In this document: positions 11,885 to 28,621 of the stretch, in pieces | Position numbering within the stretch: position 1 is the first letter of the stretch | Layout: every line of letters starts with the position of its first letter | Source of the DNA: Psychrobacter sp. AH5 | Lineage (GTDB): Bacteria; Pseudomonadota; Gammaproteobacteria; Pseudomonadales; Moraxellaceae | Direction of reading: 5' to 3' | Assembly (NCBI RefSeq): GCF_040371085.1 | Contig: NZ_JAMBMT010000001.1 | Span: 434,001-498,000 of the forward strand | Length of the DNA: 64,000 nucleotides | The notes under the pieces: model-generated | What the model saw: only the letters and a program-made list of their open reading frames with translations | Databases searched by the model: none | Told to the model about the DNA's origin: nothing | Program-made: the position numbers and the translations under genes

Positions 11885-12217
11885 CTCATAAGCCACCTGT
11901 GCGGTGGTGAAGCTCGGGTGTTGCGATGCACACTGATGTTAAAATTTCTAAGCCACCTGTGCGGTGATGAAGGGTGAGGTGTCCTGGCGGGTGCGTCCGC
12001 CAAATTTCTAAGTCACCTATGCGGTGATGAAGTTTTATGGATAAATGATTATGAAAGTGACAGATTTCTAAGTTACCTAAGCGGTGAAATCTATTTTATC
12101 AAATCGCGTTTGAAGTCATAACTTCTGAAAATTCTATTTAAAGGATTTTCCTTGCGAGCCTAAAATTGGCATGCAATTTTTTAACGGCTCTCATAAGTCA
12201 CCTGTGCTGTGGTGAAG
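11781..12217. repeat. 305-bp-offset direct duplication at the CRISPR trailer end
   Basis: The block 11781-11912 recurs at 12086-12217 with only a few substitutions. Each copy starts gaaatctattttatc and ends with a degenerate CRISPR repeat beginning ctcataag instead of tttctaag. Copy 2 interrupts a repeat that starts at 12065 and is broken at about 12085. The simplest reading is a tandem duplication of the distal array end plus its flank. Confidence 0.85.
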
Positions 12218-12457
12218 AATACTATCAAAATGACCGCGATTTTATAAACTTTCTAAGCCACCTGTGCGGTGATGAAGAAGTATGAAAAACGCGCCTATGT
12301 CCTAGAGTTTTTCTAAGTCACCTATGCGGTGGTGAAGTACTGTTGATAAGGACTGCCTTACCGAGCGTATTTCTAAGTCACCTATGCGGTGATGAAGAAC
12401 TGGCTATGGTACTAAAGCAAGCGCGGGATTTTCTAAGTCACCTATGCGGTGATGAAG
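11885..12457 (-). CRISPR. Old, degenerate trailer segment of the type I-F array
   Basis: Eight full-length repeats start at 11885, 11945, 12005, 12190, 12250, 12310, 12370 and 12430, and one broken repeat starts at 12065. Spacers are mostly 32 bp. Repeats vary (CCACCTGTGCGGTGG, TTACCTAAGCGG, CACCTGTGCTGTGG cores), unlike the uniform main array. In the direction of crRNA synthesis (minus strand) this is the leader-distal end, where decay is expected. It is separated from the main array by IS elements. Confidence 0.93.
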
Positions 12458-12477: not shown

Positions 12478-13293
12478 CTAATTTAGGACACCTGATAAGA
12501 GGTTTTGATTAAAGTAGCGCTTCTCTTTTTCTACTGGTGGTAAATAATTATTGAAGCTGTGCGGTCTCACAGTTTGATAATAGCCCCAAATATAGTCGCT
12601 AATAGCACTTGATGCTTCAGCCATATCCTCGTAGCCACCCTTTGGCATCCACTCACTCTTAAAGCTTCTAAAGAAACGCTCAGTTGGGGCGTTATCCCAA
12701 CAGTTTCCTTTTCGGCTCATACTTTGAACCATGCCATTACAACTCGCGACTGACTCAGCGAATTCTTGACTGGTATAATGCGTGCCTTGGTCAGAGTGAA
12801 ACAGCACTCCATTAGGCTTGAGTCTCGTCTGATACGCCATCTGTAGCGCTTTGGCGGTCAAAGTACTATTGGGAGAGTCTGAGACACTAAAGCCCACCAC
12901 ACGCCGTGCAAACAGGTCTAACACTACCGCTAGGTAACACCAGCCGCCTTTGATGCGAATATAGGTTACATCCCCTGTCCAGACTTGGTTAGGCGCATCA
13001 GGACTAAAATTGCGGTCTAAGATATTGTCATGGGTTTTATGCTCTTGATCCGCATGCTTGTACTTATGGGTCTTAAACTGACAGCTTTTAAGTCCCATAC
13101 TCTTCATGAGAGTGCTTGCTAGGTAACGCGTCAGTCTGATGTTATGCTCATTCCATAGTATGGCGATGATGGTGCGAGCGCCAGCTGATTGCTTTGAGTC
13201 GTTGAATATTTGGCGTATCAAGGCTTTGAGTTTGACCCGCTTTATATCGATAGGTTTAGTCTGTATGCCATAGTAATAGCTGCTTCTGACCAC
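12478..13293 (-). CDS. IS3-family transposase OrfB (DDE integrase domain)
   Basis: The protein is the catalytic half of the IS3 transposase, 271 residues from a GTG-type start, or longer if fused to OrfA. The integrase-core residues are visible: WTGDVTYIRIKGGW (Asp1), VLFHSDQGTHYTS (Asp2) and GNCWDNAPTERFFRSFKSEW (Glu). The upstream HTH_21-type region is reached in the -1 frame from OrfA. The frame is intact. Confidence 0.92.
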   Translation of the reverse strand: MVRSSYYYGIQTKPIDIKRVKLKALIRQIFNDSKQSAGARTIIAILWNEHNIRLTRYLASTLMKSMGLKSCQFKTHKYKHADQEHKTHDNILDRNFSPDAPNQVWTGDVTYIRIKGGWCYLAVVLDLFARRVVGFSVSDSPNSTLTAKALQMAYQTRLKPNGVLFHSDQGTHYTSQEFAESVASCNGMVQSMSRKGNCWDNAPTERFFRSFKSEWMPKGGYEDMAEASSAISDYIWGYYQTVRPHSFNNYLPPVEKEKRYFNQNLLSGVLN

Positions 13294-13355
13294 ACCAAAC
13301 AGGGTGCATAGCTTACGTTTGCTCAGTCGTTTGTCTTGCTCTGCTAAAGTCTTAA

Positions 13356-13667
13356 TCAGCGATAGCCGTTCAGGCTGTCCAAGGCTAGCAGAGCTGAAGC
13401 CTTTTTTAGAATGTCGCGCTCCATAGTCAGTCGTTTAACTTGTTTACGTAGCTCTTGTAGTTCTCTTTGCTCATCGGTGAGGGCTAAACCTGTAGCTGGT
13501 GCAATGCCTTGCTGCTCTTTTTTATATTTGCGTACCCAGTTATCTAAGGTTGATGCACCAACCCCTAAAGATTCTGCCACTTCTGCTATTTTGCGCTTGT
13601 GATCAACGACTAGGCTTACGGCCTCTAATTTGAATTCTCGGGTATATTCTCTGCGTTTGGTAGTCAT
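13356..13667 (-). CDS. IS3-family transposase OrfA (helix-turn-helix), with -1 frameshift signal
   Basis: This small DNA-binding subunit of 103 residues begins MTTKRREYTREFKLEAVSLV, with a ribosome binding site (aggat) just upstream. A coiled-coil-like segment (LQELRKQVKRLTMERDILKK) follows the HTH. The slippery stretch AAAAAAG (minus strand, plus coordinates 13401-13407) lies near its end. Shifting -1 there joins the frame KKGFSSASLGQPERLSLIKT, which continues into OrfB. This is the standard way IS3 elements make the fused OrfAB transposase. Confidence 0.88.
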   Translation of the reverse strand: MTTKRREYTREFKLEAVSLVVDHKRKIAEVAESLGVGASTLDNWVRKYKKEQQGIAPATGLALTDEQRELQELRKQVKRLTMERDILKKASALLALDSLNGYR

Positions 13668-13755
13668 ACTGGTTATCCTCTTTGGGGTAGTATAACCTTG
13701 TATCTTGAATAATCGCTTAATACTATCGATGAAAGTTGATAAAATAAAGCAGTTA

Positions 13756-14978
13756 TTCATGAGCATTGAGAGTATGAGTATAACCTTAGTGCCTAGACAC
13801 TGTGTAAGAGATTATGCCCAATGCTCATCCTATCATCTTAATATTCTGAATGGTATCCAAGTGCCTCGACATCTTATCAGATGCCATGAGTGACACTGCA
13901 TAAACAAGGGAAGACAATAAGATGACACATTATATAGGCATAGACGTTAGTAAAAATAAGCTAGATATTGCATGGCTCAAAGACACTGACAAACTAAAAT
14001 TCAAAACTAAAGTCTTTAAAAATGATCACAGTGACTATGCTACTCTTATCAACTGGCTAATTGCTAACATTACTGATGACTTAAACAACATCCACATAAC
14101 CCTTGAAGCCACAGGCGTCTATCACGAGAACATCGCCTACTACCTATTTGATAAAAAGCTTAACGTCAGCATCATCAATCCTGCTTACGTCAAAAGCTAT
14201 GCTGCTAGTTTAGGAAGTCGCAACAAGACGGATAAGAAAGATAGTATGTTATTAGCCCGCTACACCTATAGTGCTAAGCCTAAATTGTGGACACCGCCGC
14301 CCAGCAGAGGCGCGTCACCTCAAGTCTTTACTGTCGCGCTTAGACGTGCTACAAGAAGACTTACAACGTGAGCTGAATCGATTGGAAAAAACGGAGGCCA
14401 CAGACACCGCTCCTATCGTTAAAGCGTCTATTGAGCAGATGATAGTCTCTTTGCAAGCCGCCATTGTTAAGCTCAATGGTGATATTGATGACCATATCGA
14501 TGGTCATTCCAATTTAAAGCAAGACCAATATCTGCTACAAACTATTAAAGGCGTCGGCCCTGTTGTCTCAAAGCAGATGATGTCGCTGATGCATAATAAG
14601 CAGTTTAGTCAAGCGTCGCAAATGGCAGCCTTTTTAGGTCTAGTTCCCAAGCATAGTGAATCAGGGCTATTTAAGGGCAAGTCTCGCTTAGCAAAGAATG
14701 GCTCAAGTGCCGTAAGAGCTAAATTGTATATGCCGGCGCTAGTCGCCATTAAGCATAATCCCGACATTAAGGCGCAGTATGAGCGACTGCTTGCTAACGG
14801 TAAGTGCAAAATGCAGGCTGTCTGTGCGGCGATGCGTAAGCTTGTGCATATTTGTTTCGGCGTGGTTAAACATCAGCAACCTTACCAAGCAAGAGTTGAG
14901 CTGATTAGCACTTGATTTGGCTTTTTTAAGATGGTATCTCTTAAACATGGTCCGATTTAATTGTGCCACTATAATAAC
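13756..14978 (+). mobile_element. IS110-family element (approximate boundaries)
   Basis: IS110 elements lack clear terminal inverted repeats, so the limits are set by neighbours: the IS3 orfA side on the left and the paired 36-bp repeats on the right. The 13756-13921 stretch upstream of the transposase has no coding frame. It would correspond to the non-coding end of such elements, which in some members encodes the bridge RNA. It may lie inside the IS3 element. Confidence 0.55.
13922..14915 (+). pseudogene. IS110-family transposase, broken by a +1 frameshift
   Basis: The first part (13922 to about 14297) reads YIGIDVSKNKLDIAWL, ITLEATGVYHE and NKTDKKDSMLLARY, which carry the DEDD acidic residues of IS110 transposases. 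The second part, in the +1 frame to 14915, has the transposase_20 region (LLQTIKGVGPVVSKQMMSL, AAFLGLVPKHSESG, GSSAVRAKLYMPAL) and the catalytic-serine-type C-terminus. The shift occurs at ccgccgccc around 14292-14300. One extra C there turns the expected PPPAEARHLKS into PPPSRGASPQ. Without that base the gene would be an ordinary 330-residue transposase, so it is probably inactive. Confidence 0.9.
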
Positions 14979-15014: not shown

Positions 15015-18000
15015 CCTATGCGGTGATGAAGATTGTGGTTGCTCAGCTATCCCCTGAGTTTACTTTCTAAGTCACCTATGCGGTGATGAAGCTAAATTCT
15101 GCCTTGCCACCTGTTGCCACGTATTTCTAAGTCACCTATGCGGTGATGAAGTCTGCAAAGATTTCTTGTGTTAGGCTCATTCTTTTCTAAGTCACCTATG
15201 CGGTGATGAAGCACGGTATTTATAGCCGTCCCCGTCTGCCTCATTTCTAAGTCACCTATGCGGTGATGAAGGAATATCTTGCTCAAACTTGCACAAGTCG
15301 TCATTTCTAAGTCACCTATGCGGTGATGAAGCCTCGGTTTCAATTTCGATAGCCAGCGCCAGATTTCTAAGTCACCTATGCGGTGATGAAGAGTCGCTGT
15401 TGCTTGTGTTTTGCCAAACCAACTTTCTAAGTCACCTATGCGGTGATGAAGAGAACTAAAAGAATATTAATTTATCTTATACTTTTCTAAGTCACCTATG
15501 CGGTGATGAAGATCGCCTGTCAAATGCTTACTGTTCATAGTTTTTTCTAAGTCACCTATGCGGTGATGAAGCATTTACAGCGAGCGCTTATCGCACAGAG
15601 TATTTTCTAAGTCACCTATGCGGTGATGAAGGGGGCGGATTATCTCAAGAAGTCTTGGAGGGCTTTCTAAGTCACCTATGCGGTGATGAAGGCTATCTCT
15701 GCATTAAACCCTAAGGGCTTTATTTTCTAAGTCACCTATGCGGTGATGAAGCACAAATTGGTGGGCGCGCTTCAAAGCGGCGTTTTCTAAGTCACCTATG
15801 CGGTGATGAAGTTGATTGCTATTGCTATATCAGTTGCAGTATCTTTCTAAGTCACCTATGCGGTGATGAAGGCAGTTGGGTTAATGGCAGCACAAAACCA
15901 TCATTTCTAAGTCACCTATGCGGTGATGAAGCGTACCAAAAACAAATTTAGGTGAGTCTGTTATTTCTAAGTCACCTATGCGGTGATGAAGTTCGTTGCG
16001 CTCAAGTCCGTACTTGATGTACTTTTCTAAGTCACCTATGCGGTGATGAAGTGTTGTGACTGTTAAATACCGCAACACTAGCATTTCTAAGTCACCTATG
16101 CGGTGATGAAGGCGATTATGACATGGCAGAAAAAGCAATTCAATTTCTAAGTCACCTATGCGGTGATGAAGAGCTGCAAGGCTTAACGGTTGAGGAGTTT
16201 GTATTTCTAAGTCACCTATGCGGTGATGAAGTGATTAGTCTTTTTGCTGCTGTCTCTGTTAATTTTCTAAGTCACCTATGCGGTGATGAAGCACTCAGTA
16301 AGTCTTGACCGCTCATTTCAAACTTTCTAAGTCACCTATGCGGTGATGAAGAGAACATTATCACGTTTATCTATGGCGACCCCTTTCTAAGTCACCTATG
16401 CGGTGATGAAGCTACTTGCTTTTGGATGATGTTAACCACCAATTTTCTAAGTCACCTATGCGGTGATGAAGCTTTTACAACCAAGACCTAATTAACGCTA
16501 AACTTTCTAAGTCACCTATGCGGTGATGAAGATAATGTTAGATGATAGCTAGGAGTAACTGATTTTCTAAGTCACCTATGCGGTGATGAAGGAATACAAG
16601 TTAAGTTATAGAGCTTGTCTTGTGTTTCTAAGTCACCTATGCGGTGATGAAGTCTCTATATTGATTTACGGGTTAGTTGTCACATTTCTAAGTCACCTAT
16701 GCGGTGATGAAGTCAGCTTTGAGCTTGTCAAAACGCGCTTGTATTTTCTAAGTCACCTATGCGGTGATGAAGACTCAATGCCGCTTGCATCTTTGTAATG
16801 CGGTTTTCTAAGTCACCTATGCGGTGATGAAGTCACAGGCGCAGACGAGCTTAGTTATACAGAGTTTCTAAGTCACCTATGCGGTGATGAAGTCAACCAA
16901 CTCGCTCGCTGTCATCAACGCTTTTTTCTAAGTCACCTATGCGGTGATGAAGCATTGGAGTGCTGGTAAATACTTGCGCTTTAGTTTCTAAGTCACCTAT
17001 GCGGTGATGAAGAGATAGCGATTATGGCGCTATCTGGGCCAATATTTCTAAGTCACCTATGCGGTGATGAAGTTTTGGATTCTCGCCTCTACGCATAGCA
17101 TTGATTTCTAAGTCACCTATGCGGTGATGAAGTTATTTCTGCCCCATCTATCAACAGCCTCCTTTTTCTAAGTCACCTATGCGGTGATGAAGAAGGTGCT
17201 GGTCGCAGTCGATATGATTAATGATTTCTAAGTCACCTATGCGGTGATGAAGCGGTCAGCATCTTGCTCAGATACGATTTGATATTTCTAAGTCACCTAT
17301 GCGGTGATGAAGCTAGGTTGCAAATCTAACATGGCAACGGTGATTTTCTAAGTCACCTATGCGGTGATGAAGACTCTATCAGGGATAAGAGAAGCGATTT
17401 TTGATTTCTAAGTCACCTATGCGGTGATGAAGCATAGCGACCATCATAGTCAGCATAAGGTAATTTTCTAAGTCACCTATGCGGTGATGAAGCTATCGAG
17501 GAAGAAACACCACTAGGCAAGATATTTCTAAGTCACCTATGCGGTGATGAAGATGGCATTAAGTCAGTAGGCTCTAGCGTGGTTTTTCTAAGTCACCTAT
17601 GCGGTGATGAAGTACGAATTCAAAATCAAGTGGTATCACAAGGCTTTCTAAGTCACCTATGCGGTGATGAAGATTACAGCGTGATACTTGCTAGATTGCC
17701 AAGCTTTCTAAGTCACCTATGCGGTGATGAAGTACCGAGTCAAGGCGGTTTTGATGATGTCACATTTCTAAGTCACCTATGCGGTGATGAAGTGGTTCGC
17801 AAACTCTGTGACGCGCTGCACATCTTTCTAAGTCACCTATGCGGTGATGAAGATACCATTACTCGCTCTGTAATCGCTAATTGATTTCTAAGTCACCTAT
17901 GCGGTGATGAAGAGCGTCATTCGATGTATCTAGCGCGTAGGGTATTTCTAAGTCACCTATGCGGTGATGAAGCTAGTGCTAGAAAATCGGCTGGCGCTGT

Positions 18001-19712
18001 TGGCTTTCTAAGTCACCTATGCGGTGATGAAGTGGTTTATGCAACCAATTAGTATTGAGTATGATTTCTAAGTCACCTATGCGGTGATGAAGTGACCAAA
18101 CCTCGCCGTAAATATCAGGTATGCTTTCTAAGTCACCTATGCGGTGATGAAGGAGACAGCCGAAACCGTCTTACTGCTTAACGATTTCTAAGTCACCTAT
18201 GCGGTGATGAAGCAGTGCTAGACGTTATCAAGGCGGTCATCAAATTTCTAAGTCACCTATGCGGTGATGAAGAAATAACTCCCATCTGATACCGCCCTCT
18301 AGTGTTTCTAAGTCACCTATGCGGTGATGAAGAGTTATTTAACGCTAAGTTTGACATGGACTTGTTTCTAAGTCACCTATGCGGTGATGAAGTTAACAGC
18401 GGTTATTAATAAAGACAAGGATCATTTCTAAGTCACCTATGCGGTGATGAAGAGCCTTGATCAATCACCACTTTGTCCGATAACTTTCTAAGTCACCTAT
18501 GCGGTGATGAAGCAAGGTGCTGATGACATTGAGAACTCTATTACTTTCTAAGTCACCTATGCGGTGATGAAGAATGTCCGAACGCGCTTGTAGATAGGCT
18601 TATGTTTCTAAGTCACCTATGCGGTGATGAAGATAGTGCTATCGCAACGGTAGTGACAGCTATGTTTCTAAGTCACCTATGCGGTGATGAAGATAATAGA
18701 TATAGTCAAACAGGGATTTGAGAGTTTCTAAGTCACCTATGCGGTGATGAAGATAATCAGGCATTTAAACTCCCTAGCGCATCATTTCTAAGTCACCTAT
18801 GCGGTGATGAAGAACGAAGTTATGACGTAGATAATTTTATGAAATTTCTAAGTCACCTATGCGGTGATGAAGTCAGTAGCTATTATCGCGGTGGCAGGTA
18901 TATCTTTCTAAGTCACCTATGCGGTGATGAAGTATTTCTACGAGCAGACAGGCGGCGACATATCTTTCTAAGTCACCTATGCGGTGATGAAGAGCAATAC
19001 ACACAACCACCGACTTATGATGAGTTTCTAAGTCACCTATGCGGTGATGAAGTTAACACAATTAGTTATGTAGTGCCGTTTTTATTTCTAAGTCACCTAT
19101 GCGGTGATGAAGGAATTAAGCGCATTATCTTCGTCAAGACCACTTTTCTAAGTCACCTATGCGGTGATGAAGGTCAGCGACACGCGCTTCGCGCAAGATA
19201 GCACTTTCTAAGTCACCTATGCGGTGATGAAGCCTGTCACGCCCCATGAGCGATAATCGCTTGATTTCTAAGTCACCTATGCGGTGATGAAGGAATATAC
19301 AGGGCGCTTATGGTCGTGGTCGATTTTCTAAGTCACCTATGCGGTGATGAAGCTCAAGCTCAGCTATAGCAAGCGCACCAAAGCTTTCTAAGTCACCTAT
19401 GCGGTGATGAAGCAAGCCACACGTATGCTATTTACTGAGTTGCCTTTCTAAGTCACCTATGCGGTGATGAAGGGCTCGATTAGGACGCATAACGGACGAA
19501 TTAATTTCTAAGTCACCTATGCGGTGATGAAGTTGTTATTGTCGGCTGCTTAGTTGGCATGTCATTTCTAAGTCACCTATGCGGTGATGAAGTTAAGTGC
19601 TGCCGGCTCAATGTTTAAGTCATTTTTCTAAGTCACCTATGCGGTGATGAAGCTCGACTTGGCTCTAGTGTTGGCTTTTTAGGCTTTCTAAGTCACCTAT
19701 GCGGTGATGAAG
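15014..19712 (-). CRISPR. Main type I-F CRISPR array, 78 identical repeats plus one truncated
   Basis: Complete 28-bp repeats occur every 60 bp from 15064-15091 to 19685-19712. A truncated copy at 15014-15031 abuts the IS region. Spacers are 32 bp, except one of 33 bp at 16592-16624. On the minus strand the repeat contains stem TCACC / GGTGA with loop GCATA, and ends in the 8-nt handle CTTAGAAA, as in type I-F crRNAs. All 78 repeats look identical. Transcription runs leftwards from the csy4-proximal leader: the repeat orientation, the TATAAT just outside the first repeat and the degenerate distal end all agree. Apparent reading frames with FLSHLCGDE are only translated repeats. Confidence 0.98.
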
Positions 19713-19889: not shown

Positions 19890-20495
19890 TTACCAATGCG
19901 GTACAGTAACCGTATCTGCCGCATTATTAATGCCATAACTATTTAACGACCCTTTGACCTCGTTATCTACCATCTCTTGAATAATAGATAAAGTGTAGGG
20001 CTGATTATTGCTAATGCTCCTTAAGTTAATATACGGATAGGGTTTATTATCCTGCTTGTGTTTGGCGCAGTGTATTAGCGCCGCCTCCAGCGTAATGCCT
20101 TTATGCTCAGCGAAGGCTTCAGCTTGCTTGAACACGTTTTTATTGCGGTAGCGTCTGACTACGATGTGCCCTTTGGCTTTGTCACCAACTTCATTGATGC
20201 GCTTTACATGCACGTAGTCAGTTAATCGCTCTAACCATTTATCAAGGTTTAAAATTTCTAATTCCTTTTGATTAGGTGCAAAGACACGTAACTTTAGTCC
20301 CAGCTTGGATGATTTACCCTTTTCATCATAATGATAATCAGGGAAGCTGACACCGATGGAGTCGATGCCGTGATTATTTTTCATCTCCGCTAAGGCAATG
20401 TGCAATTGGGTAAATAGCTTACTCCAAATGAAGTAGCTACTGATTTCAGGATCAGGTAATAGGGTGATTTCTTGGTAATGGGTAAGGTTAGACAT
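19890..20495 (-). CDS. csy4: Cas6f/Csy4 crRNA-processing endoribonuclease
   Basis: This 201-residue type I-F Cas6 cuts the pre-crRNA at the base of the repeat hairpin and stays bound to the 3' end. The N-terminal KLFTQLHIALAE places His32 where the catalytic His29 of Pseudomonas Csy4 lies. IDSIGVSFPDY is the next conserved strand. KGHIVVRRYRNKNVFK, with Arg/Lys-rich residues, fits the RNA-binding helix. It is the last gene of csy1-2-3-4; its ATG overlaps the csy3 stop by one base (TAATG). The leader and array follow directly. Confidence 0.93.
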   Translation of the reverse strand: MSNLTHYQEITLLPDPEISSYFIWSKLFTQLHIALAEMKNNHGIDSIGVSFPDYHYDEKGKSSKLGLKLRVFAPNQKELEILNLDKWLERLTDYVHVKRINEVGDKAKGHIVVRRYRNKNVFKQAEAFAEHKGITLEAALIHCAKHKQDNKPYPYINLRSISNNQPYTLSIIQEMVDNEVKGSLNSYGINNAADTVTVPHW

Positions 20496-21511
20496 TATTT
20501 CTCCTTGGCGCTGGCACCGAATACGCCACCACGGATAAGTACACCCATCACATAATGCTGTTGGTTGACGTCTGGCGCCTCACCTTTTAATACCCAATTA
20601 TCAAACAAGGTGTAAAAGTCCATGTCAGCTTTGGGCTGGCGAAAGGCAGTACCTAAAGTGGTTACGGCACCATAAGGCTCAACGGCGATAGGGAACTCGG
20701 CATCAGGATACCAGTCGTCGATAGTACGAATGGCGTTGCTGACTTTTTGTGAGTGCATGCCCGCTTTACCATTAATTTGATAAAGCTCTTTAGATTTCGT
20801 TTTGCCAGTATCAAGTACTAGCTCTTGCGAGGGATAGACTTCTTGACCGTAGCCCATGATAGCAGTAGCTTTGACGTATAAAATGATAAAAGCGTCATCA
20901 TTTAATCCTTGCTCAATAAGGCTGGCAAGTTGATTGATATCATCGTTTTGTGCCGCCTCCTCATCAAAGCCACGTAGCGAGATTGATTTAGCATCAAAAT
21001 CAAAGCGCTGCGCACTGCCATCAACGGTACAGCTAACACTAACTTGAATACTTTCAGCGCCTACGCGGTTGCGCCACAGCCAGCGTGCATTAGCGATATT
21101 AGTAGCATAGCGGCGTGCCAATTCACTGACACCTTGGTTTTCTAAATAATCCTGTACAGTCGAAACTAAAGCTTGTTGATAATCTTGGTTGTTACAAACG
21201 CTAGGCTTACCTGAGAAAGGTAATACCTTACAGCTCCAAGTTACTACCAAGGTGTCGCAGTCCTCGTCTAACGCGGCAGAATCTACGCGTTGTAGGTTAG
21301 CTTTTTCGATTTCAGCATCTAATTTGGCAGGGTCAATTTTTTCAGGGTTTTTTAGACGGTTACTAATCGTACCGCGCACTGATTTTTCTTTAATAGTAAC
21401 AGGTTGCGCTTTGCTGTCTTTGTTTTGAATGTTTTGTTGGGCAAAAAAAGCGTCAGAGATGTCGAGGTTACGCTCAAAAGCCAATACGCTAGCGGTTTTT
21501 AATTTACTCAT
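20495..21511 (-). CDS. csy3: Cas7f/Csy3 backbone subunit of the type I-F Cascade
   Basis: This 338-residue subunit would polymerise along the crRNA guide (six copies in a canonical 32-nt complex). Recognisable features are the N-terminal KTASVLAFERNLDISDAFF, the thumb region rich in charged residues, and the C-terminal EVYPSQEL and AVTTLGTAFRQPK strands. Csy3 thumbs flip out every sixth guide base, which matters for the guide match near csy1. It has a good ribosome binding site (ggagc) and lies 53 bp after csy2. Confidence 0.93.
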   Translation of the reverse strand: MSKLKTASVLAFERNLDISDAFFAQQNIQNKDSKAQPVTIKEKSVRGTISNRLKNPEKIDPAKLDAEIEKANLQRVDSAALDEDCDTLVVTWSCKVLPFSGKPSVCNNQDYQQALVSTVQDYLENQGVSELARRYATNIANARWLWRNRVGAESIQVSVSCTVDGSAQRFDFDAKSISLRGFDEEAAQNDDINQLASLIEQGLNDDAFIILYVKATAIMGYGQEVYPSQELVLDTGKTKSKELYQINGKAGMHSQKVSNAIRTIDDWYPDAEFPIAVEPYGAVTTLGTAFRQPKADMDFYTLFDNWVLKGEAPDVNQQHYVMGVLIRGGVFGASAKEK

Positions 21512-21564: not shown

Positions 21565-22515
21565 TTAAAATTCAGGTTCTTGGGTTACTAGGTACAGATT
21601 CTGTTCATTATCATAATGGTAACGCCAAAACGCATTAGTGATATCATATTCGCTATAGGCTCCGCCTAAGCGCTGCGGATACACCCACTTACCAAGGCTA
21701 TAAATGGCTTCGACATACTGGCTGGGGTATTCAGGATTGCGCACATTTTGCATGACGCCCGCATCATAAAGCTCAGAGATACCTTGATAACCTATCGGCA
21801 TCGGTACTAACCAGCCGCGCCCTGTTTTACGAGAAGCCGCTGCCCATTTAGTATCGCCGTTTTTTTGGGTTTCAGGGATATGATGCAACGCGCAAACCTC
21901 TATTAATGCATCAAGCGGCGTAGCGTCTGGATTATCGGCTTGTACCTCATTAATAATCTCAGTAAACTCCTCTTGCGCGTCCATCAGTACAAAGGCAGGT
22001 AATAGATGAGCTGTGATAGCATCGACATCATCATAACTAATAAACTGCACAGGATTGAAACGATCGATACCCTGCACGCTACCGCCAGCCATGCGTTGTT
22101 GCTGAATCCATTGCTTAGTTTTGGTCATCAGGATTTCAGTTTTCGCCTCATCAGGTCTATTGCTGCCTAATACTTCAACCGCAAAACTCATGACCAATCG
22201 GCATTTACCCTCTTCGATAATAGAAGCGGTTTTGCCATCTTTTTTGATAGGGTTTCGTGTTTGATTAAACGTATAGTTGCTATAGCTCTTGTCTCGGTAT
22301 ATCTGTGGATGGCACTCGTGGCAAGCAAGCAATACACCGCATAGAGACAAATTATCTAACTCATCAAGTGCTGCTACTTTACGCGACATCGCATGAAAGC
22401 TACCCAAAAACCCAGTGATAGCGGGGAAGCCAAAGGTTAGTGGGCTAGAGATAGCATTAGCACCTTCAATAACTACTTTTTTGAACAATAAATAACCGAT
22501 CACTGAATCACTCAT
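21565..22515 (-). CDS. csy2: Cas5f/Csy2 subunit of the type I-F Cascade
   Basis: This 316-residue subunit forms the tail with Csy1 and holds the 5' handle of the crRNA. The start YLLFKKVVIEGANAISSPL followed by TFGFPAITGFLGSFHAMSRK is the typical Csy2 opening. GWLVPMPIGYQGISELYDAG and a C-terminal YSLGKWVYPQRLG are also family-like. The ATG overlaps the csy1 stop (ATGA), indicating translational coupling. Confidence 0.92.
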   Translation of the reverse strand: MSDSVIGYLLFKKVVIEGANAISSPLTFGFPAITGFLGSFHAMSRKVAALDELDNLSLCGVLLACHECHPQIYRDKSYSNYTFNQTRNPIKKDGKTASIIEEGKCRLVMSFAVEVLGSNRPDEAKTEILMTKTKQWIQQQRMAGGSVQGIDRFNPVQFISYDDVDAITAHLLPAFVLMDAQEEFTEIINEVQADNPDATPLDALIEVCALHHIPETQKNGDTKWAAASRKTGRGWLVPMPIGYQGISELYDAGVMQNVRNPEYPSQYVEAIYSLGKWVYPQRLGGAYSEYDITNAFWRYHYDNEQNLYLVTQEPEF

Positions 22516-23873
22516 AAAAACACTCCTTTACCTGCTCGCTCATACAAGCTCTTCATAGCTTCAATATCACGTTCCCACTGGTTGTGCTCAGGATCAGCAA
22601 TCTCGGTACGAATATCCTTAAACTTCTCTTGCAATAGAGCGTTCATCCAGCGAGCAAAGCGATGAATAATTTCTTTGTGCCACTCTGTCTGCTCGCGGCG
22701 AGTACTCCATTCCTCTTCGTCAGGCAATTCGGCACGCTTGGGGTCTAACCAAAACTGCTCACACTCATCCAGCTCAGAATCCTTTGTCCAGCCAGCGGGC
22801 AGATCGTTACGCATATAATTGGCAAACTCAAAAATGCGCTTCAAAATTTCATCCATCGCCTCTTTACGTGCATCGCGAATATCGACATTGTTCTTGGCAC
22901 TTTTTACCACGTAGAAGATATCTTGAATGATAGGATTGACCTTATTAGCTAACGACTTGGCAAAGATAGTGCTAGCAAACTTAGAAGGCTTAAAAGTGCT
23001 ATTTGCTATGTTCAGCATTGGTGGTAGAGAGGGGAGGAGATAGTTAATTCCACCCTGTGAACTCATATGTCTACTGACACCTTGTGGATTACTTCCTCCT
23101 ATTCGCACAATAGCTAACTCTGAAAGAGTAAGATAAGAAAGTTGTTCGATTTCAGTGTTTTTAGAAAATCTATTCTTTTTTGCTGCAACAATTTCTTCAG
23201 AATATTTAATGTGATTGATTTTTTTGTGAACATAATTTGTCAAAGAAGAAGGGTAGAGAGGAACTATGCATATGTACTCATAATCGTTAATATGCCATAG
23301 AGTTTGTTTATTATATTCACTGGTATGTGGCTGAGAGTTTGCTCCAATAAGAGACTGTCTAAACACTTCAAAATACTGTTCTGAGAGTTCAGTGTTTTTT
23401 GATAAAGCTTGTTTAAATGATTCATTATTTTCAATAATGAGGTCTTTAATTTTCTTATCTCCTATAACCTCATAATCATAAAATGAAAATAGTGGAAGAG
23501 CAGCAGCGTTTCCACTCGCATCTAGATTGTGATTATTGATAGATTGATGCCCAACTAAGCTCTCTGGTAAGTCATTTTTAGGGCTAAAATTGATATTATC
23601 TCCTTTTGAGCTTGAATGTACTCCTTTTGAGATATGAGTACCAAAGCCGATTTGATTGGTCATTTTATTAGCGGCATAATCCATCCAAGTCTCTAATTCG
23701 TATTTCTCTTTGAATTTAGACAATGATTCATTCAGTTCAGATATTTTATCAATATCATCATCTTCAATAGCTTTAGCGAGTTGCTTTTGTTCTTTCTCAG
23801 TTTTCTTATCATATAGATGAGATAGAAATGCTTTTACAGCATCTTTTGCTTGTTCAGGGGAGATATCTGACAT
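22512..23873 (-). CDS. csy1: Cas8f/Csy1 large subunit of the type I-F Cascade
   Basis: This 453-residue subunit recognises the CC PAM. It is identified by position, length and the family-like segments GGSNPQGVSRHMSSQGG and LPSLPPML, and the C-terminal acidic/Trp-rich WARWM-type region (HRFARWMNALLQEKF). It starts the csy1-4 operon. A ribosome binding site (agga, 23881-23884) is 7 nt upstream. Its promoter and leader contain a sequence matching the guide of the neighbouring solitary repeat pair, so expression is probably auto-repressed by the complex it encodes. Confidence 0.92.
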   Translation of the reverse strand: MSDISPEQAKDAVKAFLSHLYDKKTEKEQKQLAKAIEDDDIDKISELNESLSKFKEKYELETWMDYAANKMTNQIGFGTHISKGVHSSSKGDNINFSPKNDLPESLVGHQSINNHNLDASGNAAALPLFSFYDYEVIGDKKIKDLIIENNESFKQALSKNTELSEQYFEVFRQSLIGANSQPHTSEYNKQTLWHINDYEYICIVPLYPSSLTNYVHKKINHIKYSEEIVAAKKNRFSKNTEIEQLSYLTLSELAIVRIGGSNPQGVSRHMSSQGGINYLLPSLPPMLNIANSTFKPSKFASTIFAKSLANKVNPIIQDIFYVVKSAKNNVDIRDARKEAMDEILKRIFEFANYMRNDLPAGWTKDSELDECEQFWLDPKRAELPDEEEWSTRREQTEWHKEIIHRFARWMNALLQEKFKDIRTEIADPEHNQWERDIEAMKSLYERAGKGVFL

Positions 23874-23891: not shown

Positions 23892-23914
23892 CCATGCTGT
23901 TACATTTAAAAACT
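23892..23914 (+). promoter_or_regulatory. Protospacer-like target of the solitary CRISPR guide, with CC PAM, in the csy1 leader
   Basis: CC at 23892-23893 is the type I-F PAM in the right place. Directly after it, bases 23894-23914 match guide positions 1-21 of the repeat pair at 24008-24085. Positions 1-5, 7-11, 13 and 15-21 agree. Mismatches are at 6, 12 and 14. Positions 6 and 12 are bases that Cas7 thumbs flip out of the guide, so they need not pair. The site lies just after the predicted csy1 start of transcription and ends next to the ribosome binding site. Confidence 0.82.
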
Positions 23915-23931
23915 AATATAGGCTTTCCGCT

Positions 23932-23960
23932 ACTATAGAACTAACAAGATAAATAGTAAA
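23932..23960 (-). promoter_or_regulatory. Predicted promoter of csy1-4
   Basis: On the minus strand a -35 TTTACT (23960-23955) and a -10 TATAGT (23937-23932) are spaced by exactly 17 bp. Transcription would start near 23925, giving a leader of about 52 nt. It is placed back to back with the promoter of the solitary repeat pair, so both share a 75-bp divergent control region. Confidence 0.6.
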
Positions 23961-23976
23961 CACTTTTTTAGCATAA

Positions 23977-24006
23977 TTTAAGATGGCTGTTTAAAACTGT
24001 TATAAT
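23977..24006 (+). promoter_or_regulatory. Predicted promoter of the solitary CRISPR-like RNA
   Basis: A perfect -10 TATAAT (24001-24006) with a -35-like TTTAAG (23977-23982) 18 bp upstream reads rightwards into the degenerate repeats. Expected start is near 24013, the first base of the repeat hairpin stem. This explains why the repeat bases 5' of the stem are not conserved. Confidence 0.65.
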
Positions 24007-24007
24007 G

Positions 24008-24085
24008 CAATATCACCGTATAGGTGACTTAGAAAATGCTATTACAGTAAAAAACTTTTTCACCACCGCATAGGTGGCTTATCGC
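24008..24085 (+). ncRNA. Solitary crRNA-like regulatory RNA (two degenerate I-F repeats, 22-nt guide)
   Basis: Repeat-like unit 1 is 24008-24035, with 24 of 28 bases identical to the array repeat. It has an intact stem TCACC/GGTGA and handle CTTAGAAA. Unit 2 is 24058-24085 (21 of 28), with stem CCACC/GGTGG: both stem changes are compensated, so the hairpin is kept while the handle is lost. The guide between them is 24036-24057, 22 nt rather than 32. The orientation is opposite to the main array and to cas transcription. Csy4 could release a short crRNA-like guide, whose best match is the csy1 leader. This resembles CreA/CreR-type Cas-regulating RNAs known from other type I systems. No toxin gene is evident, so an autoregulator is more likely than a CreTA pair. 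Confidence 0.82.
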
Positions 24086-24086
24086 A

Positions 24087-24112
24087 AAGCACGGTTAGCG
24101 CCGTGCTTTTTT
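24087..24112 (+). terminator. Terminator of the solitary CRISPR-like RNA
   Basis: A GC-rich hairpin, GCACGG (24089-24094) pairing with CCGTGC (24101-24106), is followed by six T (24107-24112). It lies two bases after the second degenerate repeat and completes an independent transcription unit. Confidence 0.8.
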
Positions 24113-24136: not shown

Positions 24137-27100
24137 CTACTCACGCATAAATCCAAAAAATTCATGAAACCTCCAGCCTCTGTTATTGCTCAGCGTTATT
24201 CGATCAAGGGATACAGACGAGTAAGTAATAGCAAGCGAGCGCAGGCTTTTATCAGGTTGTTTGCGCTGTATGTCTTTGAGCGCTGCTTGAGTCGTTGTCA
24301 GTAGCCAAGGTTTAATATAAGGGTGGGTGAATTCAAAATTTAATACTTGCAGCTCTTTATTATGTGGACTGGTATGAGTCAAGCCTTTTTCAAACACGTC
24401 TTCGCTATAATAAGCATCAAAACCTTGTGTAGTCTCGTTCGTATCTTCATCATCATTGACCATGCGCGGAATTAACAACCAATCGTCTTGTGGAGTACCT
24501 GCTCGAAAGGGTGTGATTTGCTGCAAATGAGTATGGGCGCGGTTTGCTGTAGCGTCAGAGTGCCAATAAGCATTCACATAGTTTATCTTGCTGCTATTCA
24601 GCAGTTCATGCATGACTTGATGTTCAAGCTCACTCAAGGTTTCAGTTTTTTTGTGCTTACGCTCGTCGGTATTGATTGAGCTAATAATTCTTGGCCGCGC
24701 ATCAACATGTGCCAATTGCTCACCAGTTATCAGCTCGTTCAAGTCATAACTTTTTGGCTTAATAGTAATAGTTTCAAACCCAGGATGAGTAAAAATAGGC
24801 GCTTTTGCATGACGTTTCTTAAAATAACGAATGTTATATTGCAGCAGTAGGATATTTGGCTCATTAGCGACCTTATCAGGACGATGTCGCCAGACACGAC
24901 CTGCCAGCTGAATGATAGAGCGCATAGAGGAGGGTTCTACTATTGACCAGTCATAATCATGGTCGCGTCCGACCTCTGCGACAGGGGTGGCAAGTACCAT
25001 AAAGATATGATTTTTGGCAGGATTATTAGCAATGGCTTGCTTAATCTCAAGATGGTTAAATATGCTCACTTTACTATCGCTACGGTCTAAGATTCTATCC
25101 AACTTATTCTCTAAAGCGTTGCGCAGTAGCAAAAGCTGCTTGGCGTGATAGCAAGTAATATGAATGAAAGTGTCTGCGGGCAGCTGTACATTGTCAGGCG
25201 TAAAGAGTTGCTGGGCGATACTGGTAATATTATTGACGTTGGCGACACGTATAAGCCCGATACTCACTTTTTGATCTGTCGTCTGATGAGTGAGCGCATG
25301 ATGCTGGTGTAGCTTGATTGCACCATCAACCAGTGTTTGCGCAAGCTTGCTATAAAACTGATGATCTTGGTTTTTGTTATAGCTCATTAAACTCAGGGGT
25401 AAAATCTCTGCTTTGCGGCGAATAGGTTGTTTGGCTAAATAGCTGGCTCGCTGCTCACTAAAGGTGTTATGAGCCTGATAAAAATCAACAACGTCGGCAC
25501 ATTGCTCGGACAGCATCGCTTTGGGCTGTTCGTCATACCAAGCACAAACCACTTTTGGCGCAGGTTTATTTTGGCTTTGATTAAACAATTTGCGCCCTTC
25601 CATATAAGCCTCAAACAATCCTGTTACCAAATCAGGCGTCAAGGTCGCAGACGATAACAGCACCCGCGTACCAAAAAGTCCAGCAAGATGCACTAAACGC
25701 GACAGCGCAGGCAAGTCCGCTTGATCAAAGTCATCAGGCTCATCGAGTATCAAGTCACTACTAAGCAGTCGCAGCATGGGGGCAATATATTTACCGCCGC
25801 GTTTGCACTCAGAGGCTTGGATAATATGGTCAACGGTGCAGGTCACGATAGGCGCAAATATTAAATCGCGTGCTTTAGGGCTAGCGATGACCGTATCGAG
25901 ATTCAGCGCTTCATAGTCTTGATAATCAATATCACTATCAACGATTTCATCTAACAAATCCTCACTAGATTCACTACCAAAGCTTTTAGATTCATTATCA
26001 GGCTCATCGTCTTTTTTATATTCGCCAATAATATCGGTAAACTCATCGTTTTTATTGTCGTATGCCATTTCAAACAGCTTTTTGTTGGCGCTACCGCCGA
26101 CCAGTATGGCTAATTGGTCACCTGCTAATTTTAAGTTTTTACGAAAGCTTAAGCCGGTTTGCAAGGTTAGAATCCGTAGACCTAGCGCAATAGTAAAGCG
26201 TGCGCCTTTTTTGGGATCAGCTAAGGCGTACATAATACGAGCATTACCAATCGTTTTACCCGCGCCTGTCGATGCCATATTGACCCCAAAAAACCCATGC
26301 TCGCGCGTTGTATCAGCCAAAGCATAGGTCATTTTGAAGGCTTGGTTCTGCCATTTAAAACGTTCAATTCCAGTAGGTTTGGCTAATGGGTCATGGTTGC
26401 GCAGTGTCGGCATCTCACTAGCGATGATAGGCAGCGCACGAGCGATGTGCGCGGTAAAAGCACCAACACCTAATAAGTGTTCTTCAAGAGACTGTTTAAC
26501 CGTCGGTGTGCTAGCGCTCCGATCAGTATTAGCGGCTAAATTTTTGAAGCTACTATCGACTTTGATGCAGCGAGAGTCGTCTTGCTTGAGACTAGAATAG
26601 TTATGATCGCCTACCATTAAGCACAGACGGGATAAATGCAGTAAGAAGGGGTCGCTAATGGCTTTATTGTCATCAACCGCTTGCTGGCTTATTTGCATTA
26701 AAGCAGGGTCATTCAAAGCTTTTTTAGACCAACGTCTGATATTTTTTTGCCAAGCGAGGCTATTTATCACTAACTGCTCAAATTGCCAAAAGTTGTTTAA
26801 CTGAGTTTTAGTCATCTCCTCTAGTGATTTTGGATTTTTAACCCAGTAGTCGATAGGAGTTAACTTGCTATAAAACTGATTCAATTGAACTTTAATATCT
26901 ATTAGACCTCTAGGGCTTCTGAGACGCTCTATTTGTCTTGGAGGATAATAGACTTTATTAATTGGTGGCAAGCGATGATGAGTGACAATCAGCCAAGCGA
27001 CCCACTGCGCTAGGGGCGGCATCACTCTTACATTGACAGCATCTTGATTAGCACTAGATAGTAGCTTTTCTATATTATTGCCATCTAGCCATTTTTTTAA

Positions 27101-27625
27101 GTGCATTAAACGGTTAAGCCATGCTTCATCAGTCTTGCAGTCCTCAATTATTAGCTCAAACAACTTTAACGATATCCACTCATGGCGATAAGAATCCCCT
27201 TGTTTGCTACCGATAAGGAGCTTTTTTTGAAAGCCAACGGTTGATTTGCCAATGTCGTGGAGTAATGCAGATATAGTAGCAATAATTTGAATACTACTGG
27301 CATAACTCCATTCATTCTCCCACTCACTGTGCAGAATATTTCTTTTGGTGCGGTTAACAGGAACCACACCTACCTCATTAAACCTACGCTTATTACCCAC
27401 GATCCAGACCAGCTCCGTCAACTGGCGAGTTTTATTACGATGACAGCTGACTGCTGTCGATTTGGTCGCAGATTTGCGCAGTAATTGCTTAACGGTTTGC
27501 AAGCCATCTTCGGTAATAGCCGTCTGCCAAACATTGTCACCAATGCGGTTAGCAAAGCTGTCCAAGATACGCCGTGTACGTTTAAGCGATTTCTTCTCGC
27601 ATTGAGAGACAAAAGTGACAATCAT
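24137..27625 (-). CDS. cas3: Cas2-Cas3 fusion nuclease-helicase, type I-F
   Basis: The protein has 1162 residues. The N-terminal 95 residues (MIVTFVSQCEKKSLKRTRRI) are the Cas2 domain that joins Cas1 in spacer acquisition. An HD nuclease follows, with LLHDIGKSTVGFQ (H123, D124), HEW (148-150) and VTHHRLPP. The SF2 helicase has Walker A MASTGAGKTIGNAR, a DEPD box (LILDEPDDFDQADLP), SSATL and QLAGRVWRHR. A C-terminal domain closes it. Fusion of Cas2 to Cas3 is diagnostic of subtype I-F. It directly abuts cas1 with no gap. It ends 263 bp before csy1, where the solitary RNA lies. Confidence 0.97.
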   Translation of the reverse strand: MIVTFVSQCEKKSLKRTRRILDSFANRIGDNVWQTAITEDGLQTVKQLLRKSATKSTAVSCHRNKTRQLTELVWIVGNKRRFNEVGVVPVNRTKRNILHSEWENEWSYASSIQIIATISALLHDIGKSTVGFQKKLLIGSKQGDSYRHEWISLKLFELIIEDCKTDEAWLNRLMHLKKWLDGNNIEKLLSSANQDAVNVRVMPPLAQWVAWLIVTHHRLPPINKVYYPPRQIERLRSPRGLIDIKVQLNQFYSKLTPIDYWVKNPKSLEEMTKTQLNNFWQFEQLVINSLAWQKNIRRWSKKALNDPALMQISQQAVDDNKAISDPFLLHLSRLCLMVGDHNYSSLKQDDSRCIKVDSSFKNLAANTDRSASTPTVKQSLEEHLLGVGAFTAHIARALPIIASEMPTLRNHDPLAKPTGIERFKWQNQAFKMTYALADTTREHGFFGVNMASTGAGKTIGNARIMYALADPKKGARFTIALGLRILTLQTGLSFRKNLKLAGDQLAILVGGSANKKLFEMAYDNKNDEFTDIIGEYKKDDEPDNESKSFGSESSEDLLDEIVDSDIDYQDYEALNLDTVIASPKARDLIFAPIVTCTVDHIIQASECKRGGKYIAPMLRLLSSDLILDEPDDFDQADLPALSRLVHLAGLFGTRVLLSSATLTPDLVTGLFEAYMEGRKLFNQSQNKPAPKVVCAWYDEQPKAMLSEQCADVVDFYQAHNTFSEQRASYLAKQPIRRKAEILPLSLMSYNKNQDHQFYSKLAQTLVDGAIKLHQHHALTHQTTDQKVSIGLIRVANVNNITSIAQQLFTPDNVQLPADTFIHITCYHAKQLLLLRNALENKLDRILDRSDSKVSIFNHLEIKQAIANNPAKNHIFMVLATPVAEVGRDHDYDWSIVEPSSMRSIIQLAGRVWRHRPDKVANEPNILLLQYNIRYFKKRHAKAPIFTHPGFETITIKPKSYDLNELITGEQLAHVDARPRIISSINTDERKHKKTETLSELEHQVMHELLNSSKINYVNAYWHSDATANRAHTHLQQITPFRAGTPQDDWLLIPRMVNDDEDTNETTQGFDAYYSEDVFEKGLTHTSPHNKELQVLNFEFTHPYIKPWLLTTTQAALKDIQRKQPDKSLRSLAITYSSVSLDRITLSNNRGWRFHEFFGFMRE

Positions 27626-28621
27626 TTATATCTCCCAACTTTTAGTCATCGCCAATTGTTTAACCACCTCAAACTGATAATCCAGCGCATGATGCTTAGT
27701 AAACATATTGATGCACTCTTGGCGAAACTCTTGCTCGCTCATGTTTTCACTGGCACAAATAAAGGCGAGGGGCAGCACCAGCGCATCTTTGATAATATCA
27801 GCAATATCAAACACCAATGCCCCGCGCCGGGTCTTGCCATGCATGACTGCAAAACCGTGTGGAATGCCCAGCGTCCATGCCGTTGTCGCACCGAGTCCAT
27901 AAGCCAGATAGTTTCCATGATTGAGGAAACCATTGGCCTTATCGATACCATCGTGCTCACGGGTAAAGCCGTCATAACCGGTATTTTTGGCAGCTAGCTT
28001 ATACAGTTGCTTGGTCAGGCGGGCTTCCAATTGCAATAAATGCATGACCTCGGTTTGCTTATCGATTTGCTGAATATTATTACTGAGCAATTTTTGTATC
28101 GCATCATTACTGCTATCAAAGCCGTGGCGCTTAAAGTCACTATCTTTACCCCATACCGCTTGCAGATAAGCAATGCGGGCTATTTGCAACTGCTTAGCAG
28201 CGGCAAGGCGTTTGTCATCATCCCACCACCAGCTCATCCAACCTTGAATATATTCTGTCGGACGATACTCACTTTGCGGAGTCATCCATTCGACGAAGAC
28301 TTCACGCTCACTGCCCATAAACAGCGGCATACCGCCACCACCACAAAAACCGACCAACACCCCCGCTTGGGATAGCAGGCGCATCGCCGCTTGAGTGATG
28401 GAAGTTCCCGTACCTAGCAAGATGGATGTGGTATTGGCGATAGGAATGTTGTAATACAGATTGGCCTTGTCGTCTTCGGTCAAATAGAGGACACGGCCGT
28501 CTTTTTGCATGACGCGGCAGTGGGAGAGGTAGTAGATATTGGCACGTTTGGAGTGCAAAATAGTCTTGAGGTCGGAAGAGACGAAACTATTATCGGTATA
28601 GGGGTTACTGGGTTTGCTCAT
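27626..28621 (-). CDS. cas1: Cas1 integrase, type I-F
   Basis: This 331-residue spacer-integration nuclease carries the metal-binding residues Glu (LEARLTKQLYKLAAKNTG), His (FAVMHGKTRRGA) and Asp (LVFDIADIIKDALVLPLAF). Upstream conserved parts are ILLGTGTSITQAAMRLLSQAG and VLVGFCGGGGMPLF. It is the first gene of the cas operon, and its stop is immediately followed by the cas2-3 start. An inverted repeat lies 14 bp before its start. Confidence 0.96.
   Translation of the reverse strand: MSKPSNPYTDNSFVSSDLKTILHSKRANIYYLSHCRVMQKDGRVLYLTEDDKANLYYNIPIANTTSILLGTGTSITQAAMRLLSQAGVLVGFCGGGGMPLFMGSEREVFVEWMTPQSEYRPTEYIQGWMSWWWDDDKRLAAAKQLQIARIAYLQAVWGKDSDFKRHGFDSSNDAIQKLLSNNIQQIDKQTEVMHLLQLEARLTKQLYKLAAKNTGYDGFTREHDGIDKANGFLNHGNYLAYGLGATTAWTLGIPHGFAVMHGKTRRGALVFDIADIIKDALVLPLAFICASENMSEQEFRQECINMFTKHHALDYQFEVVKQLAMTKSWEI

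Follow-up and report, generated by a model that had tools for sequence, protein, structure and literature searches.

Organization of the type I-F1 locus

The window analysed here is a 64,000-nucleotide stretch of the Psychrobacter sp. AH5 genome. On its − strand is a type I-F1 locus with the order cas1 (27626–28621, TIGR03637), cas2-3 (24137–27625, TIGR02562), csy1 (cas8f; 22512–23873, TIGR02564), csy2 (cas5f; 21565–22515, TIGR02565), csy3 (cas7f; 20495–21511, TIGR02566) and csy4 (cas6f; 19890–20495, TIGR02563), followed by a CRISPR array; the operon predicted to be regulated starts with csy1, and csy4 encodes the predicted processing enzyme. The main run of the array (15064–19712, − strand) comprises 78 matched copies of the repeat CTTCATCACCGCATAGGTGACTTAGAAA. 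Interrupting the array are two insertion sequences (window 12478–14915), one IS3-like (rve and HTH_Tnp_1) and one IS110-like, and nine further repeats, several of them diverged, are located at 11889–12451. A second array with the same repeat (G000:C1:1476163–1478400, 38 repeats listed) lies about 1 Mb from the window locus.

A mini-array between cas2-3 and csy1

Separating cas2-3 from csy1 is a gap of 263 bp, and inside it, on the + strand, is a mini-array composed of two repeats (R1, 24008–24035; R2, 24058–24085) and a 22-nt guide (24036–24057), exactly to the base as the first-pass annotation had described two degenerate I-F repeats around a guide. Compared by eye with the array repeat, R1 shares 24/28 bases and R2 21/28. 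The 5′ part of R1 has diverged, while its 8-nt handle, CTTAGAAA, is intact and the repeat folds as a 5-bp hairpin; R2 has an intact hairpin, in which one T-A pair is now C-G, and has lost the last four bases of the handle. The halves needed in a mature guide RNA, the handle in R1 and the hairpin in R2, are retained. From the known Csy4 cleavage site, the predicted processed RNA spans 24028–24077 (+) and is 50 nt long (8 + 22 + 20), compared with the usual 60.

Ahead of R1 is a promoter-like site on the + strand (23978–24006; TTAAGA-17-TATAAT, with TG ahead as in an extended −10) that scores 10/12 in a consensus scan. Behind R2 is a hairpin resembling an intrinsic terminator, followed by a T run (24088–24112, +), with a folding energy of −12.1 kcal/mol; a simple terminator scan did not include this hairpin among its calls, and listed none. 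The whole RNA (24013–24112) has a folding z of −4.05. The promoter and the GC hairpin with its T run had both been claimed from the first reading of the sequence, and a promoter-like site and such a hairpin are present, albeit with the former weak relative to shuffled sequences and the latter absent from the terminator scan.

The only Rfam family matched is CRISPR-DR4, with two matches that both fall under the gathering score. Ordinary arrays carry 32-nt spacers between near-identical repeats, and the element differs from them in its single 22-nt spacer and in the divergence of its repeats; it agrees with mini-arrays and CreR-like elements, in which two repeat-like sequences flank a spacer within a cas locus.

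The target in the csy1 leader

The guide matches 18/21 positions of a target in the csy1 leader (23894–23914, +), preceded by CC at the PAM position (23892–23893, +). Mismatches are at positions 6, 12 and 14, so that pairing is seen at 17/18 of the positions that are not multiples of six, as the first-pass annotation had counted. The PAM of the Csy complex is described as two G-C pairs (PMC4344526), and every sixth base is described as flipped out in the complex (PMC7305327).

This match is beyond chance. A search for the CC and the guide together, leaving positions 6 and 12 free and allowing at most three mismatches, gives two hits in the window against 0.00 expected, and the same two in the 3.24-Mb genome, namely the target (one mismatch) and the guide itself (two mismatches, both in the CC). 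As the guide's own DNA has AA where CC would be, and so lacks a PAM, the csy1 leader is the sole other genome site at up to three mismatches. Shuffled guides equalled the true guide in 0/500 cases by one score and in 1/300 by the plainer score of a search blind to PAM and phase. The spacer is thus a partial match (18/21), unique in the genome, to the leader of a cas gene, with CC, the PAM of the subtype.

The target ends 20 nt ahead of the csy1 start codon. A promoter-like site of csy1 on the − strand (23960–23932; TTTACT-17-TATAGT, 9/12 in the consensus scan) would put the target roughly between +11 and +32 relative to the predicted csy1 start, a position that depends on a weak promoter call. 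The consensus scan gave two promoter-like sites compared with 0.9 in shuffles and, owing to this background, both calls are weak when taken singly. The mini-array promoter faces away from the target and is outside the stretch that the target covers.

Mini-arrays in related loci

Matches to csy1 were present in 30/195 near-relative genomes, 20/105 genomes of the genus and 71/348 of the family, in 34/369 of a class sample and 52/390 of an order sample, and a named scan contributed 51 loci; these sets overlap. For family matches without a locus, 38 extra stretches were retrieved, and from the class and order samples only matches with a locus id were used. The loci scanned numbered 133 + 58, a tally in which some genomes recur and the window itself is counted (L001, L155), and the compared loci have shared ancestry. 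A structural rule blind to the target (two hairpins with the I-F handle, 12–40 nt apart) found pairs in 37/133 and 14/58 loci, four of which (L063, L071, L072, L074) have an ordinary array, a run of 32-nt spacers, inside the searched region. The element, which had been called solitary, is instead one of a widespread set.

Starting from the handle only, guide–target pairs were found in 69/133 loci, compared with a median of 15 for 30 shuffled handles, so that about 15 of the 69 are expected by chance. Three of the shuffled handles hit 53–56 loci and the other 27 hit 8–27; we suspect that the three resemble the true handle. A −10 box for the mini-array (at least 5/6 of TATAAT, 3–11 nt before the R1 stem) was present in 17/34 loci, compared with a shuffled fraction of 0.23, which is suggestive only. 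Of the 20 csy1-bearing Psychrobacter genomes, eight gave a pair neither under the structural rule nor in the handle search, and the Psychrobacter loci without a pair include the one with the closest csy1 (63%, L002). A second csy1-bearing genome of the same species was not found in the sample, in which G195 (77% complete) lacks csy1. A plasmid search for csy1 returned 17 records.

Agreement of guide and target across relatives

For 46 distinct spacers defined by structure, a search of the region that imposed neither PAM nor phase identified the best match; this set leaves out L071, L072, L074, L155 (the window itself) and repeated guides (L046 twice, L047, L048, L049, L066, L076, L077, L197). 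CC stands ahead of the best match for 35/46 spacers. In these 35, mismatches occupy 47/70 cells at positions 6 and 12 (67%) versus 36/503 elsewhere (7%), an odds ratio of 26.5, and there are none at positions 1–5. A CC target at p ≤ 0.01 was found for 34/46 spacers. Seven 32-nt spacers among the 46 (six in L063 and one extra in L003) have the appearance of acquired spacers, and 0/7 have a significant CC target; among the remaining spacers the count is 34/39. The five of these above p = 0.01 are those of L035 (0.013), L172 (0.033), the 19-mer of L063 (0.053), L193 (0.09) and L085 (0.127).

Guides were also swapped between loci, using 27 guides of which 24 have CC ahead of the best match; L071, L072 and L074, whose searched regions contain main arrays, were left out, as were repeated guides and any spacer of at least 32 nt. 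Only 12/702 swapped pairs reach the weakest own CC match. Independent drift of guide and leader had been set beforehand as the finding that would speak against the regulatory reading, and the opposite was observed: guides are different sequences between species, yet most fit their own locus behind CC and differ from it chiefly at positions 6 and 12, as expected if guide and target change together.

The position and orientation of the target vary. In 11 other csy1-adjacent loci it starts 71–109 nt before the csy1 match, compared with 20 in the window, and in four of these 11 (L011, L013, L015, L036) a promoter-like −10 ends at the PAM. In L019, L020, L067, L098, L100 and L176 the csy1-sense strand carries the CC target, so that the complex would face the opposite way. 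Upstream of csy1 in P. urativorans (L003, L046) is a three-repeat mini-array with an extra 32-nt spacer between identical copies of R1, as if added by the adaptation machinery; this spacer matched no phage or plasmid, and a CC target for it was absent from the vicinity. In L009 (1171–1410) a 79-aa ORF, presumably DUF2188-like, lies between the mini-array and csy1, and the CC target is upstream of the ORF, so that the guide may control a cargo gene. In five Acinetobacter loci (L040, L041, L042, L098, L100) the targets are 324–386 nt from the csy1 match, within the gap from which I-F CreTA has been reported (PMC10097628), and these loci may be CreTA modules.

Guide length

Guides with a significant target cluster in length, 31/34 being within 1 nt of 14, 20, 26 or 32 (18 exactly), although many of these 34 loci are related; 30/34 of these guides are shorter than 31 nt. 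The clustering persists in 13 loci outside Psychrobacter, Acinetobacter and Moraxella (Rayleigh p ~0.002). These lengths correspond to the rule L = 6N−4, where L is the spacer length and N the number of Cas7 subunits, reported for Aggregatibacter I-F1, in which R-loops shorter than 32 bp form but do not trigger Cas2/3 (PMC7296934). At 22 nt, the window guide is one of the 3/34 that are not within 1 nt of 6N−4 and, as an exception, it is itself no demonstration of the length rule. Shorter spacers had lower affinity in the same Aggregatibacter work, in which a 14-nt spacer was without effect on phage in vivo (PMC7296934), and the 22-nt guide may accordingly bind weakly. In type I-B, a 24-bp spacer is reported to reduce target transcription to ~11%, with no interference (PMC10989794). 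We found no description of natural guide lengths in the literature on I-F mini-arrays that we searched, which is no proof of absence.

Proposed mechanism and alternatives

At the level of sequence, our analysis covers the repeats, the guide, the CC-flanked target and the guide–target agreement in relatives. Given these, it is highly probable that the element is a two-repeat type I-F1 mini-array with a CC-flanked match in the csy1 leader, predicted to bring the cell's own Csy complex there and likely to block csy1–csy4 transcription without cutting. The CC and the six-base rhythm of mismatches are marks of a Csy complex reading DNA, which makes self-repression of csy1–csy4 the best reading.

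A short + strand RNA would be made from the mini-array and trimmed by Csy4 to about 50 nt (24028–24077), and Csy1–3 would assemble on the trimmed guide RNA. The complex would then dock at the CC and open an R-loop of about 21 bp, probably too short for Cas2/3, which needs 32 bp in another I-F1 system. Covering the early part of the predicted csy1 transcript, the bound complex would halt RNA polymerase, and the block would lift when Csy proteins are scarce, occupied by array crRNAs or bound by anti-CRISPRs. As cas1 and cas2-3 are upstream of the target and the guide promoter faces away from it, the loop would be confined to the effector genes. Binding without cleavage, as proposed in the first-pass annotation, is consistent with the behaviour reported for I-F1 complexes of another genus (PMC7296934).

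Were the guide RNA an ordinary antisense small RNA, it would pair with the csy1 mRNA leader and lower translation or stability without Csy proteins. There is indeed complementarity between the guide and the predicted leader RNA of csy1, and the terminator-like hairpin would give a discrete RNA. Such pairing, however, needs neither CC beside the target nor free sixth bases, both of which are present across relatives, and the target is on the other strand in the six loci named above; in the four loci where a −10 ends at the PAM, it would be untranscribed. We therefore regard the antisense explanation as very unlikely. Less probable still is a CreTA antitoxin guide, for which the target would be the promoter of a small toxic RNA, freed upon Csy loss. 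Acinetobacter I-F CreTA occupies the same cas3–csy1 gap and has the same guide anatomy (PMC10097628), but in the window the PAM stands just 20 nt from the csy1 start, and a scan of both strands of the 263-bp gap gave no mini-ORF with a Shine-Dalgarno sequence; the scan is weak, having been positive in only 4/34 loci, and within its scope no toxin RNA gene was seen behind the target.

Lowest in our estimation, with a very slim chance, is that the element has no working target, being either a mini-CRISPR in decay or an RNA decoy comparable to the phage Racrs (RNA anti-CRISPRs). The repeats have diverged, and solitary I-F repeats can inhibit Cascade (PMC10651486). Decay is opposed by the retention of pairing positions in unrelated guides while every sixth position drifts, and a decoy requires no guide match; Racrs are solitary repeat units that lack a second repeat and guide, whereas the window has two repeats and a matching guide.

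Self-repression may also be a wider feature, although here we put the balance at about even: Gammaproteobacterial I-F1 systems would carry an autorepressor ruled by length, with guides near 14, 20 and 26 nt that correspond to whole numbers of Cas7 and stay below the 32-bp R-loop that fires Cas2/3, and with only the non-flipped bases kept. The Psychrobacter element would then be the leader-roadblock form of it, sensing free Csy complex, such that a large array (78 repeats in the main run) or an anti-CRISPR raises csy1–csy4 and leaves cas1 and cas2-3 untouched. If so, csy expression would shift with array size and with anti-CRISPR proteins, and natural guides, expected to bind and not to cut, would make a nuclease-armed system reusable for self-regulation. 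Genomes record the six-base rhythm, the CC and the guide lengths, so that I-F1 rules established in vitro can be checked against natural selection.

Relation to known systems

Type I-F1 mini-arrays with two repeat-like sequences around a spacer that partly matches cas promoters, chiefly that of cas8, were reportedly described by Shmakov et al. in 2023, who are said to have found crRNA-like repressors in type I-F as well and to have tested one I-F1 mini-array case. The window element resembles these in its two repeat-like sequences and in a spacer with a partial match to the cas region.

CreR denotes crRNA-like RNAs by which the effector is led to the promoter region of the cas operon (PMC12737573, PMC13131331), and the window element is similar in being a predicted crRNA-like guide aimed at its own cas operon. 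It differs in that CreR is named for I-B, I-E and V-A in PMC13131331, whereas the window has an I-F1 guide with a predicted csy1-leader site. That crRNA-like regulators occur in other type I systems, as the first-pass annotation put it, is correct but too narrow, type I-F being among them (PMC10097628).

A close experimental parallel is the Acinetobacter I-F CreA, whose 20-nt guide has mismatches at positions 6, 11 and 18 to a CC-flanked target lying downstream of the promoter; repression there is reported as about eightfold (PMC10097628). Shared with this CreTA are the cas3–csy1 gap, two degenerate repeats, the CC, a short and partly matching guide and a target downstream of a promoter, but CreTA represses a toxic RNA (PMC10097628) and the gene after the window target is csy1. 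With the Aggregatibacter I-F1 Cascade the window shares short guides, R-loops predicted not to trigger Cas2/3 and the context of the 6N−4 rule, whereas the Aggregatibacter spacers were engineered (PMC7296934) and the window guide is natural and, at 22 nt, 2 above the 20 of the rule.

The kind of element is already known, from the reported I-F1 mini-arrays at cas8 promoters and from CreR; what the window adds is a further example, with its target in the leader. Taken together, rhythm, PAM and length across the compared loci put the reading as predicted self-repression on firmer ground than the single sequence did.
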